From the NCBI GenBank assembly GCA_036339585.1, contig JAYZAS010000005.1, positions 62,001-126,000 of the forward strand: a DNA stretch of 64,000 nt, written 5' to 3'. Positions within the stretch are counted from its first letter, which is position 1. Each line of letters begins with the position of its first letter. Position numbers and translations under genes: made by a program. Below, one piece after another: positions 37,427 through 42,590 of this stretch. The notes beneath the pieces are model-generated. The model had not been told where the DNA came from. It saw nothing but the letters and a program-made list of their open reading frames with translations, and ran no database searches. The stretch is from Pseudomonadota bacterium (GTDB taxonomy: Bacteria > Pseudomonadota > Alphaproteobacteria > UBA8366).

Positions 37427-38170
37427 TTATCCAACATATTTTTTTACAAAAGCGAATAATTTTTCCCAGCCATCATTGCATTGTTCAACTCGGTGTAGAG
37501 GCCTATTATAATAAAAGAACCCGTGCCCCGCGCCATCATACCGATGAAACTCATAGGTCTTCCCGTGTTCCTGAAGTTTCTTTTCATGTTGATCTACTTG
37601 CTCAGCACTAGGTGCTTGGTCTTCATTGCCAAATAAGCCAAGAATCGGACAGTTGAGATCTGCCGTCATATCTATAGGAGCTTGAGGTAACTTTTCATTT
37701 AGGTCCTCCTCAGCCATAACCACGCGACCTCCCCAGAGATCTAGACAAGCATCCGCTTTTTCTGTTTTTGAGCAATAAATTACGGCGTGGCGGCCGCCAG
37801 AGCATGTGCCAAAAACGGCTGCTTTACCTGTAGAGAATTGCTGAGATTTAAGCCAGTCCATTGCGGCGTCAACATCTCCAACCATTTGGGCATCTGAAAC
37901 ACCCCCTTCCGCACGAACTTTGGCTGCAACATCTTCTGCGCTGCCCTCGCCAGCGCGTTCGTAAAGATTAGGACTTATTGCTGCATACCCGTGGTGTGCA
38001 AATTTACGCGTTGTTTCGCGGTACCATTCATCCCATCCCGGCAAATGATGTATCAGTACTATTCCAGGAAATGGACCGGGCCCCATTGGGCGGGCAGTAT
38101 AAGCCTGAATGGGATCATTGTTATGGCCGTCTAAGATTATCATTTCTGCGATCATACTTTCGTAAGACAT
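37427..38170 (-). CDS. Dienelactone-hydrolase family protein
   Basis: 247 residues, alpha/beta-hydrolase fold. The nucleophile elbow is GTCSGG with C123, and the triad continues with D184 (GNEDQAPS) and H216 (GAGHGFF). A cysteine nucleophile is the mark of dienelactone hydrolases, which open lactones from ring-cleavage pathways; other members hydrolyse various esters. IVLIHHLPGWDEWYRETTRKF forms the oxyanion region. The substrate cannot be named. It is 100 bases after the hydratase gene, in the same orientation, in an apparent catabolic operon. Confidence 0.85.
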   Translation of the reverse strand: MSYESMIAEMIILDGHNNDPIQAYTARPMGPGPFPGIVLIHHLPGWDEWYRETTRKFAHHGYAAISPNLYERAGEGSAEDVAAKVRAEGGVSDAQMVGDVDAAMDWLKSQQFSTGKAAVFGTCSGGRHAVIYCSKTEKADACLDLWGGRVVMAEEDLNEKLPQAPIDMTADLNCPILGLFGNEDQAPSAEQVDQHEKKLQEHGKTYEFHRYDGAGHGFFYYNRPLHRVEQCNDGWEKLFAFVKKYVG

Positions 38171-38270: not shown

Positions 38271-39068
38271 TTAACCTCTTACCGTAACTGAGACAGACCC
38301 TAGTCCGGCCATATGATGGTGTAATGTATCGCCCGGTTTTACCCAATGAGTTTTTACCATAGAACCCAAAGTGACAATATTGCCGCCTCGTAGCATGCGG
38401 CCTTGCTCGCAAAGTTTATTAGCAAGCCATGTAAGAGCGTTTAATGGGTGTCCCATAATCAACGAACTCTTACCGTGGCCTAATTCTTTTGAATTAAGTG
38501 TAACAAACGCTTCTAAAGAGGCAAGGTCAAGCTTGTGCCAGTCTGCGATGGGTCGACCTAGAACGATACCAGCATTGAAAAAATTATCAGCTGTCAAGGT
38601 GGGCGTATCTAAGGCCTCAAAATTCTTATATCTCGCGTCAACAAGCTCTATTGATATCATGACAGAATCTATGGCATCAACAACAAGCTCAAAATCGTAG
38701 GGATCTCCGTTATTGGGAAGATTAGTATCTAACCGGACTGCCATTTCTGCTTCAATTCCTAATTGTACATAATTAGCTAAATCTAAAACTGCTGTATCTC
38801 TGAAAATAGTAGAGCTAAAAATCTCGCCATATATGGGTTCGTGTATGTCTAAGTACCGCTGAAGAACTGGAGTGGTGCAGCCAATTTTGTAGCCGGACCT
38901 GCTGCCTAGACGGCTTCGACTAAGTTTATCATTCAGGCTGTTTTGAATCTTGTATGCAGCTCCCATATCTAAGGGGCGTACATCGCTATTCAACTTATCA
39001 AGCGCGGTATTAGCAAGGCGATTTTCCTCTAAGATGGTCACCGCTTGATTAACATTATCTGATTTCAT
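38271..39068 (-). CDS. 2-keto-4-pentenoate hydratase family protein
   Basis: 265 residues matching the hydratase/decarboxylase branch of the fumarylacetoacetase-like superfamily (MhpD type). These enzymes add water to 2-hydroxypenta-2,4-dienoate-type products of meta-cleavage. Visible segments are KIGCTTPVLQRYL, GEIFSSTIFRD, LGIEAEMAVRL (with the metal-binding acidic residues), ELVDARY, and GLGSVSVTVRG at the C-terminus. The ATG overlaps the stop of the UGSC gene as ATGA, a sign of translational coupling. A role in ring-fission catabolism is a guess from the family. Confidence 0.86.
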   Translation of the reverse strand: MKSDNVNQAVTILEENRLANTALDKLNSDVRPLDMGAAYKIQNSLNDKLSRSRLGSRSGYKIGCTTPVLQRYLDIHEPIYGEIFSSTIFRDTAVLDLANYVQLGIEAEMAVRLDTNLPNNGDPYDFELVVDAIDSVMISIELVDARYKNFEALDTPTLTADNFFNAGIVLGRPIADWHKLDLASLEAFVTLNSKELGHGKSSLIMGHPLNALTWLANKLCEQGRMLRGGNIVTLGSMVKTHWVKPGDTLHHHMAGLGSVSVTVRG

Positions 39069-39598
39069 TCTGTTGCGACAGACGTGAGGTTTTCAATTAT
39101 TGAATCGAAAGCTTGATAGGCAATCATCTCTAACTCTTTTTTGGTACGGTTTTGAATAGGGTGTTCTACCCATACCGTAGCTGGCTCGAAACCAAGAGAT
39201 GCCGCTTGCGCCTTTGCTGCTGACACAAACTCGGTCGTTGCTACAAGTAAACCAGGCACCTTTAATTGATCAAGAGCATTTAAATCATGCAAACTGCACG
39301 ATGTGCATGACCCTCAATCTGCCAGACTTTCAATAACAATGTCTGCCTCGTGCACTATAGACTGAATGGTGTGCAAGTCAGCGTTTTTTGAATTGCTAGC
39401 TTTACGATACCGCCTCACTTCAATTCTCTTCTCTGTAAATTTAGCTTCAATATGGTCGAGAAACTCGTCGGACCGTTCCTTAGCAATATCAAGAAGTGCA
39501 ATGGTCCTTTTCTCGATATTTTCTGGAAAACATGTTGGCTTACGCAGCGTTGTTGAGGCTTCGCTGGTAGGATCTCGTAGGAATTGCGGTTTCTGCAT
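39065..39598 (-). CDS. UGSC-family selenoprotein (in-frame TGA read as selenocysteine)
   Basis: Two open frames on the minus strand (39598-39314 and 39292-39065) share one frame and are separated only by a TGA at 39316-39314. Read through, they give a 177-residue protein whose residues 95-98 are U-G-S-C, followed by TSC, after ESLAD. U-G-S-C with Sec is the signature of the UGSC family, known from marine metagenomic selenoprotein surveys. A good ribosome site (GGAG, 5 bases before the ATG) and four-base coupling with the next gene show an intact operon. A hairpin lies directly after the TGA (39285-39310). The redox motif suggests a thiol/selenol chemistry; substrate unknown. Cys and Sec variants exist; a decayed gene is the alternative but the frame is clean. 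Confidence 0.85.
39285..39316 (-). promoter_or_regulatory. Candidate bacterial SECIS hairpin after the Sec TGA
   Basis: Directly after the TGA (39316-39314) and three G residues, TCATGCA (39310-39304) pairs perfectly with TGCATGA (39291-39285) around a 12-base loop. Inside, TGCAC (39307-39303) can alternatively pair with GTGCA (39299-39295) around a 3-base loop. A bacterial SECIS is expected in this position, but the apical loop begins closer to the TGA (about 10-14 bases) than in E. coli fdhF. Coding constraint also shapes this segment. Confidence 0.5.
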
Positions 39599-39622
39599 GA
39601 CTACTCCACGGTTGTGTAAAAA

Positions 39623-41065
39623 TTAAAATTGGTGGGTCACAGGCTGGATCTCATTACGGTTACGACCACCACCCCATCCACCTATAATGGCCGTTTGTAA
39701 TCCTGCTGTTCCTCCGGCGCGGATAAGAAGAATACCATGGTCTCTCCAGAATTTGGGCACCATTTCTTCAGCTAATTCAGGGTCAATTCCCTCATCAATG
39801 CCGTGTGCTCCTTTTACAAGATCTGCTCCCGGTCGGGTGGTGTAGTGATGTAATGCATCTTCAATATCTTTACGCCCCCACCCGTCATTCTTATAGATTT
39901 TATAATGTTCTGGCGAGATGGCGACGATTACATTTGCGCATTGAACCTTTTTTGGGTGCAATTCATTGACCAGTGACATGGAAAGTGATTTTGCAAGCTG
40001 ATCAGCTGACCGCGCTGTGTCATCTGCAAAAGCCTGCGTGCCATGACCGTGGTGAAGTGTTACAGCATTAGAGCCCGCTGTGCACCCTCGTGAAATATGA
40101 AGTGGCTCCCATTCTGGGTCAGTTTCGTCTTCTGCAAAACAGAAAGTATATTTGCCAGGGTTGCCAAAAACAGCACGATCAATCTCGCCAGGACGTCCGC
40201 CGCCTACATTTCTTACAACCAGCTGCAAAGTGCGGCCAATGGTGGCGTTAGCGCGATTTCCTTGACCAAAGACATTATGACCCCAGTTCATGCCAATAGA
40301 TTTAGTTATGGGACCATTCACAATAATTACCGGGCCAGAAAAAAATAAAGTACACAATACTCCGTGAAGAGTAAATTTCGGATTGAGTGCTGCTTCTATC
40401 GAGGCAAGAATGACTGGCATATACTCAGGACGGGCCCCTGCCATAACAGCATTTATCGCAACCTTTTCAATGGTGCACTCCTGAAAATCTGGGGGCATGA
40501 GACCGAGTTTTTCATTGGGGGAACGATTTATGCCTGCAAGCATTCGAATAATCCTGTCGTCAGTTGGGGGGACTATTGGAAGACCGTCTGTCCAGCCCCT
40601 ATCGTAAGCTTGCTCCACTGGATCATCCCATTCAGAAAATTCTACTTTCCGCGACTTAAATCCAATTTCACCATATGTTGCCTGAAGTTTTTCGTGTACT
40701 CCCGGTTCGGTCGATTTTGATCCGCAGCCGGGTTGATTTGGTGGCAGTGCGAGACCCAACCCTTTAATTCCAGTCATTTTTTCCCAGTCGCTTCGGTTCC
40801 ATCCGTGAACCCGATCGATCTCTTTTTTTCCTTTGGTAAGAATTAGGGTAGGGACGATGTCGACTCCTAACCTGAAACTGTTCTCCAAGGTCCTGTCGTC
40901 GATTACACCGCCGGGTATGGATGGGAAATCAGGGTCATCCTGACAATAAATTCTTATGTTAGCGACTGTATGCCTAAGCTGCTGTAGTACTGGCACCACA
41001 AGCTCACAAGTAGGACAATCGCGTTTGACCACTGCGATAAAGCAATACTCATTAATAGTCATCAT
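39623..41065 (-). CDS. Thioredoxin-like domain fused to a conserved domain; UGSC partner protein
   Basis: 480 residues. Residues 1-100 look like a thioredoxin fold: beta strand, then C17-P-T-C20, then VVPVLQQLRHTV and a later cis-Pro-like VPTLILTKG. The rest (about 130-480) is a conserved domain of unknown function marked by WTDGLPIVPPTDDRI, VAINAVMAGARPEYMPV, GPVIIVNGPITK, and GKYTFCFAEDETDPEWEP. To my knowledge such proteins commonly stand beside UGSC proteins, and here the two genes are 24 bases apart. The CPTC motif could recycle the Sec/Cys motif of the UGSC protein; that is inference. No signal peptide is visible, so it is probably cytoplasmic. Confidence 0.75.
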   Translation of the reverse strand: MMTINEYCFIAVVKRDCPTCELVVPVLQQLRHTVANIRIYCQDDPDFPSIPGGVIDDRTLENSFRLGVDIVPTLILTKGKKEIDRVHGWNRSDWEKMTGIKGLGLALPPNQPGCGSKSTEPGVHEKLQATYGEIGFKSRKVEFSEWDDPVEQAYDRGWTDGLPIVPPTDDRIIRMLAGINRSPNEKLGLMPPDFQECTIEKVAINAVMAGARPEYMPVILASIEAALNPKFTLHGVLCTLFFSGPVIIVNGPITKSIGMNWGHNVFGQGNRANATIGRTLQLVVRNVGGGRPGEIDRAVFGNPGKYTFCFAEDETDPEWEPLHISRGCTAGSNAVTLHHGHGTQAFADDTARSADQLAKSLSMSLVNELHPKKVQCANVIVAISPEHYKIYKNDGWGRKDIEDALHHYTTRPGADLVKGAHGIDEGIDPELAEEMVPKFWRDHGILLIRAGGTAGLQTAIIGGWGGGRNRNEIQPVTHQF

Positions 41066-41690: not shown

Positions 41691-42590
41691 CTAAGTTTGA
41701 ATGGCAAATCGAGTCTCAACAACTTCATCATATGGTATCACGCGATTGATTAAGCCGCCGGTTAATAAAGCAGTACGTAAACGTTCAAACCCCTCCACAT
41801 CTAACAGCGTACTTTTATTCCAAATGCCATTTTTTTTGTAACGTTCAATTGCAGACGTCAATATATCTCCTGAGAATTCCCTAAAAAATGGTTTAACTGC
41901 GCTGGCTATTTCTGTCGCACTATGACAGTGCACCCAGCCAAGAGACTTCGCCATTGCATTTGTTATTGCCTGCATATCATCAGGTCTCGCATCTAACATT
42001 GAGCGGTTAGCATAAAGGCTCGTATAGGAGCATGCGCCTCTGTGCGCTTGTTGGTACAAAATGTGTCCACCTTCCCGAATTAAAATTTCGGCAAATGGTT
42101 CATGCAATTGCACTGCCGCTATATCTCTATTTTTCCAAGATTCTATATTTTGAGACACCGTTTGAGTGGAAATACGAGCAATAGTATTGGGATCAATATC
42201 AGCCCTTCGACAGTCGTCCTGTAGGCAGAGCCAAGGTGTTACGGCCTCGCTAAAACTGCCGAGTGTAATGTCTTTCAGGTCTCCCAATTCGAAATTTTTA
42301 AATTTTTTATTGCTCACAATGTAAAATGGATCGCGACAAACGACCTCACAAAAACAAACCATTTCACATGAAGGATCTTTGTCATGAAAATGAAGTACTC
42401 TCATTGGTCCGCCCCAAGAAAGTGCATCGTGTCGACCTGCGGAAGCCTCCGCTCCCTTTCCCGGTTTTTCACATTCGCCAAATTCCATGGATAAACCCTC
42501 TCCAACAAAAGAGCCAATTTCGAAGGCTAGATAGAATGGAACGTAGAAAAGGCTCCGGAAATTTTCATATAAGGTGATAGTTTTTTGCAT
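41691..42590 (-). CDS. NMT1/THI5-like protein without signal peptide
   Basis: 299 residues with the two-lobe layout of NMT1/THI5/SsuA-like substrate-binding proteins (DALSWGGPMRV; GDLKDITLGSFSEAVTPWL; AAVQLHEPFAEILI). There is no hydrophobic N-terminal segment (MQKTITLYENFRSLFY), so it should be cytoplasmic unless another protein supplies export. A cysteine cluster lies at C75, C79, C81 and C85 (C-x3-C-x-C-x3-C). THI5-type enzymes also use a Cys-rich motif with iron, so an enzymatic rather than a transport role is possible. No permease or ATPase gene is beside it. It probably shares a transcript with the VOC gene. Confidence 0.7.
   Translation of the reverse strand: MQKTITLYENFRSLFYVPFYLAFEIGSFVGEGLSMEFGECEKPGKGAEASAGRHDALSWGGPMRVLHFHDKDPSCEMVCFCEVVCRDPFYIVSNKKFKNFELGDLKDITLGSFSEAVTPWLCLQDDCRRADIDPNTIARISTQTVSQNIESWKNRDIAAVQLHEPFAEILIREGGHILYQQAHRGACSYTSLYANRSMLDARPDDMQAITNAMAKSLGWVHCHSATEIASAVKPFFREFSGDILTSAIERYKKNGIWNKSTLLDVEGFERLRTALLTGGLINRVIPYDEVVETRFAIQT

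Follow-up and report, generated by a model that had tools for sequence, protein, structure and literature searches.

What is encoded where two open frames that share a phase lie end to end on the minus strand, divided by nothing but a TGA codon? A locus in the 64,000-nucleotide stretch of DNA analyzed here as a whole (the window) raises this question, and the original prediction answered it with a single gene of the UGSC family in which the TGA is read as selenocysteine (Sec). Direct reading of the sequence bears out the arrangement that had been described: the two frames are separated only by the TGA at 39314-39316, and the joined gene has a normal start, a ribosome site, the motif U-G-S-C-T-S-C with Sec at its head, and a four-base coupling to the gene that follows. 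On the minus strand, its ATG occupies 39598-39596, the in-frame TGA 39316-39314, and the terminal TGA 39067-39065, the last overlapping the ATG of the next gene (ATGA, 39065-39068), and the read-through product comprises 94 residues, Sec, and a further 82, giving 177. The main interest of the locus lies in the two-gene system that surrounds this gene, in which it is accompanied by what we refer to as its partner. The elements of the UGSC gene itself are as follows.

39065..39598, minus strand: UGSC-family selenoprotein gene, 177 residues, Sec95; PF24696 E 2.1e-31, NF041046 115.4 bits, AlphaFold2 mean pLDDT 90.7
39314..39316, minus strand: UGA codon, almost certainly read as Sec; of 75 homologous loci that could be read, 71 have TGA, 2 TAG, and 2 TGC
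39284..39302, minus strand: bacterial SECIS-like hairpin with an 8-bp stem; the apical loop, GUU, lies 22 nt downstream of the first base of the UGA
39604..39607, minus strand: Shine-Dalgarno-like GGAG, 5 nt before the ATG of the UGSC gene, by direct sequence reading

Automatic gene callers see two same-phase open frames divided only by a stop, and the TGA might be just that, leaving either a pseudogene or a 94-residue protein and a separate one of 75 residues. The split is not a chance one, however, because the PF24696 match of the read-through product runs straight through the TGA, with residues 8-172 aligned to positions 3-171 of a 172-position profile. At 109.8 bits against a curated cut-off of 25, and with most of the length covered, the match supports the family membership that had been proposed. 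On the NCBI equivalog model NF041046 (UGSC_fam), the protein scores 115.4 bits where the cut-off is 125; the C10 paralogue scores 150 bits. Judged by these profiles, the window copy is kin of NF041046 and is not filed as that equivalog. It is an additional member of the UGSC family, known since 2008, with which (PF24696, NF041046; PMC2398784) it shares a full-length match, Sec within the UGSC motif, and Sec machinery in the genome. Beyond the score, it differs from the UGSC proteins of NF041046 and PMC2398784 in that its partner, which has a thioredoxin-like segment, is encoded by a gene of its own, and in its predicted flavodoxin-like fold.

The Sec machinery, sought in the genome to which the window belongs (2.79 Mb, 25 contigs), is present in full: selA and selB adjoin on contig 10 and are followed by tRNA-Sec with a UCA anticodon, and selD is found on contig 18. 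Each of the four UGSC paralogues in this genome has exactly one in-frame TGA. Across 11 genomes of the window's taxonomic family, an in-frame TGA is present in 65 of 66 UGSC matches, accompanied in one of them by a TAA, the remaining match being a 59-position fragment. The TGA is also kept in two congeneric orthologues, 90% identical, in which the changed codons (synonymous/nonsynonymous) number 15/9 and 7/7 after the TGA and 16/8 and 12/9 before it. Purifying selection is similar on both sides of the codon, and this, together with the retention of the TGA throughout the family, weighs against a real stop. As a separate observation, selD (G000 contig 18:9487-10404, L110) lies within a 766-residue open frame and may therefore be fused at its N terminus, as in the known Ndh-SelD.

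More distant homologues were collected from one-per-species genomes with the neighboring partner as the query, so that Sec was not presupposed in the UGSC genes recovered. The scan yielded 80 loci from many phyla, 76 of them with a UGSC gene, and a Sec codon stands at the critical position nearly everywhere: TGA in 71, TAG in 2, and the Cys codon TGC in 2, with one truncated copy unread. The conservation expected beyond the TGA is also there, with G96, S97, C98, C101, D105, F124, H146, and P147 invariant in 73 sequences. Both TAG codons occur in Geodermatophilaceae (L060:7374 (+), Blastococcus; L099:7374 (+), Geodermatophilus), and the Geodermatophilus genome holds another UGSC copy, also with TAG. 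The tRNA-Sec of this family reads UAG, and among the UAG-decoding selenoproteins described there are likewise genes with the UGSC motif in which UAG takes the place of the Sec codon UGA (PMC5330540), whereas the window uses UGA with a UCA anticodon. In both genomes with the TGC form, selB does not rise above the cut-off, and it does so in 47 of 48 other genomes sampled (Fisher p 0.0024), an association that involves only two Cys cases and MAGs that may be incomplete. A TAG found exactly in the lineage with a UAG-decoding tRNA-Sec and a TGC only where selB is missing speak against termination at this codon.

The region downstream of the codon adds a further point. Between 16 and 37 nt after the UGA, 109 of 114 homologues form a small apical loop that contains a G, as against 43% of synonymous-codon shuffles, the mean hairpin energy over the 114 has a z of -1.48, and the window's own hairpin is mildly more stable than its shuffles (z -1.34). 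On these comparisons, the hairpin of UGSC homologues goes beyond coding constraint and would help UGA decoding, which again argues against a stop. Because machinery, paralogues, close and distant relatives, and SECIS-like signals combine, the reading of the TGA as a real stop is very unlikely, to the point of being scarcely credible. We regard it as close to certain, from the sequence evidence as a whole, that Sec is inserted at the UGA of codon 95 and that the gene encodes an intact selenoprotein.

The second gene of the system, immediately 5' of the UGSC gene on the same strand, has a thioredoxin-like N terminus and a hinge Cys ahead of a domain with the motif DGLPxxPPT.

39623..41065, minus strand: partner gene, 480 aa; thioredoxin-like N terminus, hinge Cys, then the DGLPxxPPT domain
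41006..41017, minus strand: CxxC (Cys17-Pro-Thr-Cys20) of the thioredoxin-like segment, from the translation; a CxxC also occurs in homologous partners
40724..40726, minus strand: Cys114 of the partner (PGCGS), an invariant column; TGA in three homologues

The association between the two genes is close. At 72 of 76 loci, both genes share a strand, with UGSC 3' of the partner and no more than about 300 nt away; in the window's taxonomic family, a partner is adjacent or fused for all 43 UGSC genes examined (40 loci); and in a betaproteobacterial MAG (G414), partner and UGSC occur together in 18 of 20 loci. We therefore consider it very probable that the two form a functional pair. Three subtypes can be distinguished: a thioredoxin-linked partner with PG[C/U]GS, as in the window; a short partner without it; and a fusion. 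The thioredoxin-like segment and Cys114 are missing from many paralogous pairs. No description of a UGSC-partner two-gene system was found in the literature searched, and the near-obligate adjacency or fusion, thioredoxin-linked in the window, is apparently new.

Several variations on the arrangement were encountered. A single partner accompanies two tandem UGSC genes in L162, and in L167, L168, and L169, two successive partner genes stand beside one UGSC gene, as if duplicated into a heterodimer. L088 and L102, considered as partners without a UGSC gene, were rejected, both genomes carrying one elsewhere. On contig 10 of the window's genome, selA, selB, tRNA-Sec, an AhpD-like gene, a short partner, and a UGSC gene form one run (L013:2879-8863). 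Contig 1 (L014:4858-8334) holds two tandem fusion genes, with UGSC N-terminal and partner C-terminal, which carry the motif AAUGxCxxACG and have UGSC parts that are 54% identical. The GOS selenoproteome paper already noted UGSC fused with a second conserved domain, Unknown_1 (PMC2398784), and the contig 1 fusion is probably this same arrangement.

The thioredoxin-like label of the partner is a tentative one, based on the CxxC together with a match to Thioredoxin_2 that is weak (E 0.0068). A Pfam search with the DGLPxxPPT domain gave no match, comparison of the partner model with the PDB (Foldseek/VIA) gave no Z of 5 or more and no clear fold match, and profile searches of the sequences of solved structures, with UGSC and with the partner, found nothing significant. 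Since the structure search was without a match and the first 115 residues are poorly modelled, no fold is claimed for the partner, and with no recognizable fold, its active site could not be named.

The AlphaFold2 model of UGSC is more informative (mean pLDDT 90.7). It consists of five alternating strand-helix units. Sec95 follows strand 3 just before the helix 96-111, and the stretch in which it lies also contains Cys98 and Cys101. This does not follow the secondary-structure order of the thioredoxin fold, and the closest structures among the matches listed are flavodoxins, TIR, and receiver domains. The fold is thus predicted to be flavodoxin-like and not the thioredoxin-like one supposed in the GOS selenoproteome paper (PMC2398784); the flavodoxin-like prediction is apparently new. 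The best single match, a chain of the MCR activation complex (Z 11.9), is on a par with generic flavodoxin-like chains and was not taken as a sign of kinship, and matches to DUF116 in 19 UGSC members were set aside as too weak (best E 8e-4). Outside the motif, the residues invariant in the 73 sequences include Asp9, Pro10, Lys40, Asp94, Asp105, Phe124, His146, and Pro147; Lys40 and near-invariant Arg/Lys residues would suit an acidic substrate.

The number of copies per genome is a second source of information on function. A UGSC match of any kind was found in 7 of 397 sampled genomes of the phylum, and every genome of the window's family has between 3 and 10 copies. The betaproteobacterial MAG mentioned above (the L033 genome; e.g. 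L190-L209), the purity of which is unreported, has 29 UGSC genes with one TGA each. The 19 of these copies that were compared differ too much to have been duplicated from a single gene, pairwise identity having a median of 31% and reaching 67% at most. For comparison, a 2016 survey counted 33 UGSC in 26 organisms (PMC5029168); multiplication of copies within genomes is apparently new. It also illustrates how routine annotation hides whole gene sets, in that all 29 in this one MAG would be called broken.

Around the window's own copy lie FAA hydrolase, dienelactone hydrolase, glyoxalase, weakly NMT1-like, and MmgE/PrpD genes, among them the following.

38271..39068, minus strand: FAA-hydrolase / 2-keto-4-pentenoate-hydratase-like gene; PF01557 E 8.4e-11, four-base overlap with the UGSC gene
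37427..38170, minus strand: dienelactone-hydrolase-like gene, downstream; PF01738 E 3.4e-38
41691..42590, minus strand: weakly NMT1-like (substrate-binding-protein-like) gene, upstream; PF13379 E 5e-5, 23.6 bits, below the cut-off of 24.7

Both congeners have an ORF of the same length as the FAA-hydrolase-like gene 3' of UGSC. These neighbors, like the high copy numbers, fit catabolic enzymes that differ from one another in substrate. Elsewhere the neighboring genes vary and indicate no single substrate, and tallies over the 80 distant loci and the paralogues of the window's family singled out no pathway. An association with MmgE/PrpD (7 of 128 neighbors; 5 versus 2 of 135) is suggestive at most. 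TctC organic-acid receptors are enriched near 20 UGSC loci of the betaproteobacterial MAG, where they make up 39 of 135 neighbors as against 19 of 135 in controls from the same genome (p 0.0046), which speaks for organic acids as the class of substrate.

The metagenome literature tends to suppose that proteins of this kind are general thiol/selenol antioxidants or disulfide oxidoreductases, reducing peroxides or disulfides. The UxxC motif, the thioredoxin-like segment of the partner, and the AhpD-like gene beside the C10 copy are in keeping with such a role for UGSC and its partner. Against it stand the five alternating strands and helices of the predicted fold, which are not in thioredoxin order, and the presence of up to 29 diverged paralogues per genome with solute receptors enriched nearby, which fit substrate specialization better. 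On balance, an antioxidant role seems unlikely. Binding or detoxification of a metal or metalloid by a cluster of Sec and Cys ligands, with no organic substrate being reduced, is more improbable by a good way. It would account for the invariance of three soft ligands (U95, Cys98, and Cys101), and Sec has been proposed as a metal ligand in some other selenoproteins (PMC13188914), but no metal-resistance family recurs among the neighbors listed, and many of the paralogues sit in solute-uptake and acyl-CoA contexts.

A reductive role for the pair is suggested by a resemblance to the selenoproteins of glycine and D-proline reductase, GrdB and PrdB (PF07355). The GrdB motif is UxxCxxC (PMC6778437, PMC13188914), as in UGSC. 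When 134 UGSC domains were compared by hhalign with about 40 GRDB-type proteins, the score was 40.7 (P 3.9e-5, probability 70%), whereas none of 30 decoys, shuffled or reversed, scored above 19.2 and none of 16 unrelated families above 22.5; with a narrower alignment, the probability was 21%. Sec falls on Sec and Cys98 on Cys, with only the Sec-side part aligning. This correspondence is apparently new. The differences are also considerable, with identity at about 11%: searched with HMMER to an E of 10, the window protein has no PF07355 match, and for 73 UGSC homologues this family does not appear among the 25 families listed (of 28). For want of an HMMER assignment, the window protein is not filed as a member of PF07355; the resemblance is a distant one, and the protein may work like a GrdB without being one. 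Glycine reductase is also similar in having a second subunit and a link to thioredoxin, as UGSC and its partner would. No kinship between the partner and GrdE or PrdA could be demonstrated.

Taken together, the best overall explanation, to which we would give a probability of roughly 0.6, is that UGSC and its partner constitute a Sec-encoded two-gene unit with GrdB/PrdB-like chemistry. The proposal in its specific form is a two-component reductase of imported small organic solutes. The selenolate of Sec95 would attack a small organic substrate, probably one bearing a carboxylate, held between UGSC and the partner domain; Cys98 and Cys101 would resolve the selenium-substrate or selenenyl-sulfide intermediate; and electrons would return from the CxxC of the partner via Cys114. 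In pairs without the thioredoxin-like segment and Cys114, the electron route would differ. That the pair is a GrdB/PrdB-like reductase in this sense falls just short of an even chance. Chemistry of the GrdB/PrdB kind may in this way be spread over substrate-specific UGSC paralogues. We suggest, with more reserve and at rather worse than even odds, that the pair represents the two subunits of an undescribed GrdB/PrdB-related class of selenoenzymes found in many phyla. Some genomes would then hold dozens of copies, each specific for its substrate, and the thioredoxin-linked partner would carry a second Sec in some lineages.

In surface-water metagenomes, UGSC proteins rank with the most abundant of all selenoproteins (PMC2398784). 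They are without known function, and no biochemistry of any member was found in the literature searched (PMC13188914). A partner family, a fold that is not that of thioredoxin, a GrdB-like Sec site, and clusters with solute uptake would turn them into a testable two-subunit enzyme. If the proposal is correct, selenium-dependent reductive catabolism is far wider than the clostridial amino-acid reductases suggest.

The partner may itself carry Sec. Its Cys114 column is invariant in 78 aligned sequences (Sec being written as Cys), and at three loci (L030:5338, L033:6007, and L103:6010, all (+)) an in-frame TGA stands exactly at this codon, the frame being open on both sides. Hairpin tests on these three TGAs were not significant. 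Because the TGA coincides precisely with an invariant Cys in all three, the partner is likely to be a selenoprotein in these lineages, and a TGA at this position is apparently new. GRDB-like (PF07355) selenoprotein genes also occur in the genome of the window: two in tandem on contig 4 (L108:2433-4941), with U-P-N-C, and a third on contig 17 (L107), with U-P-K-C.
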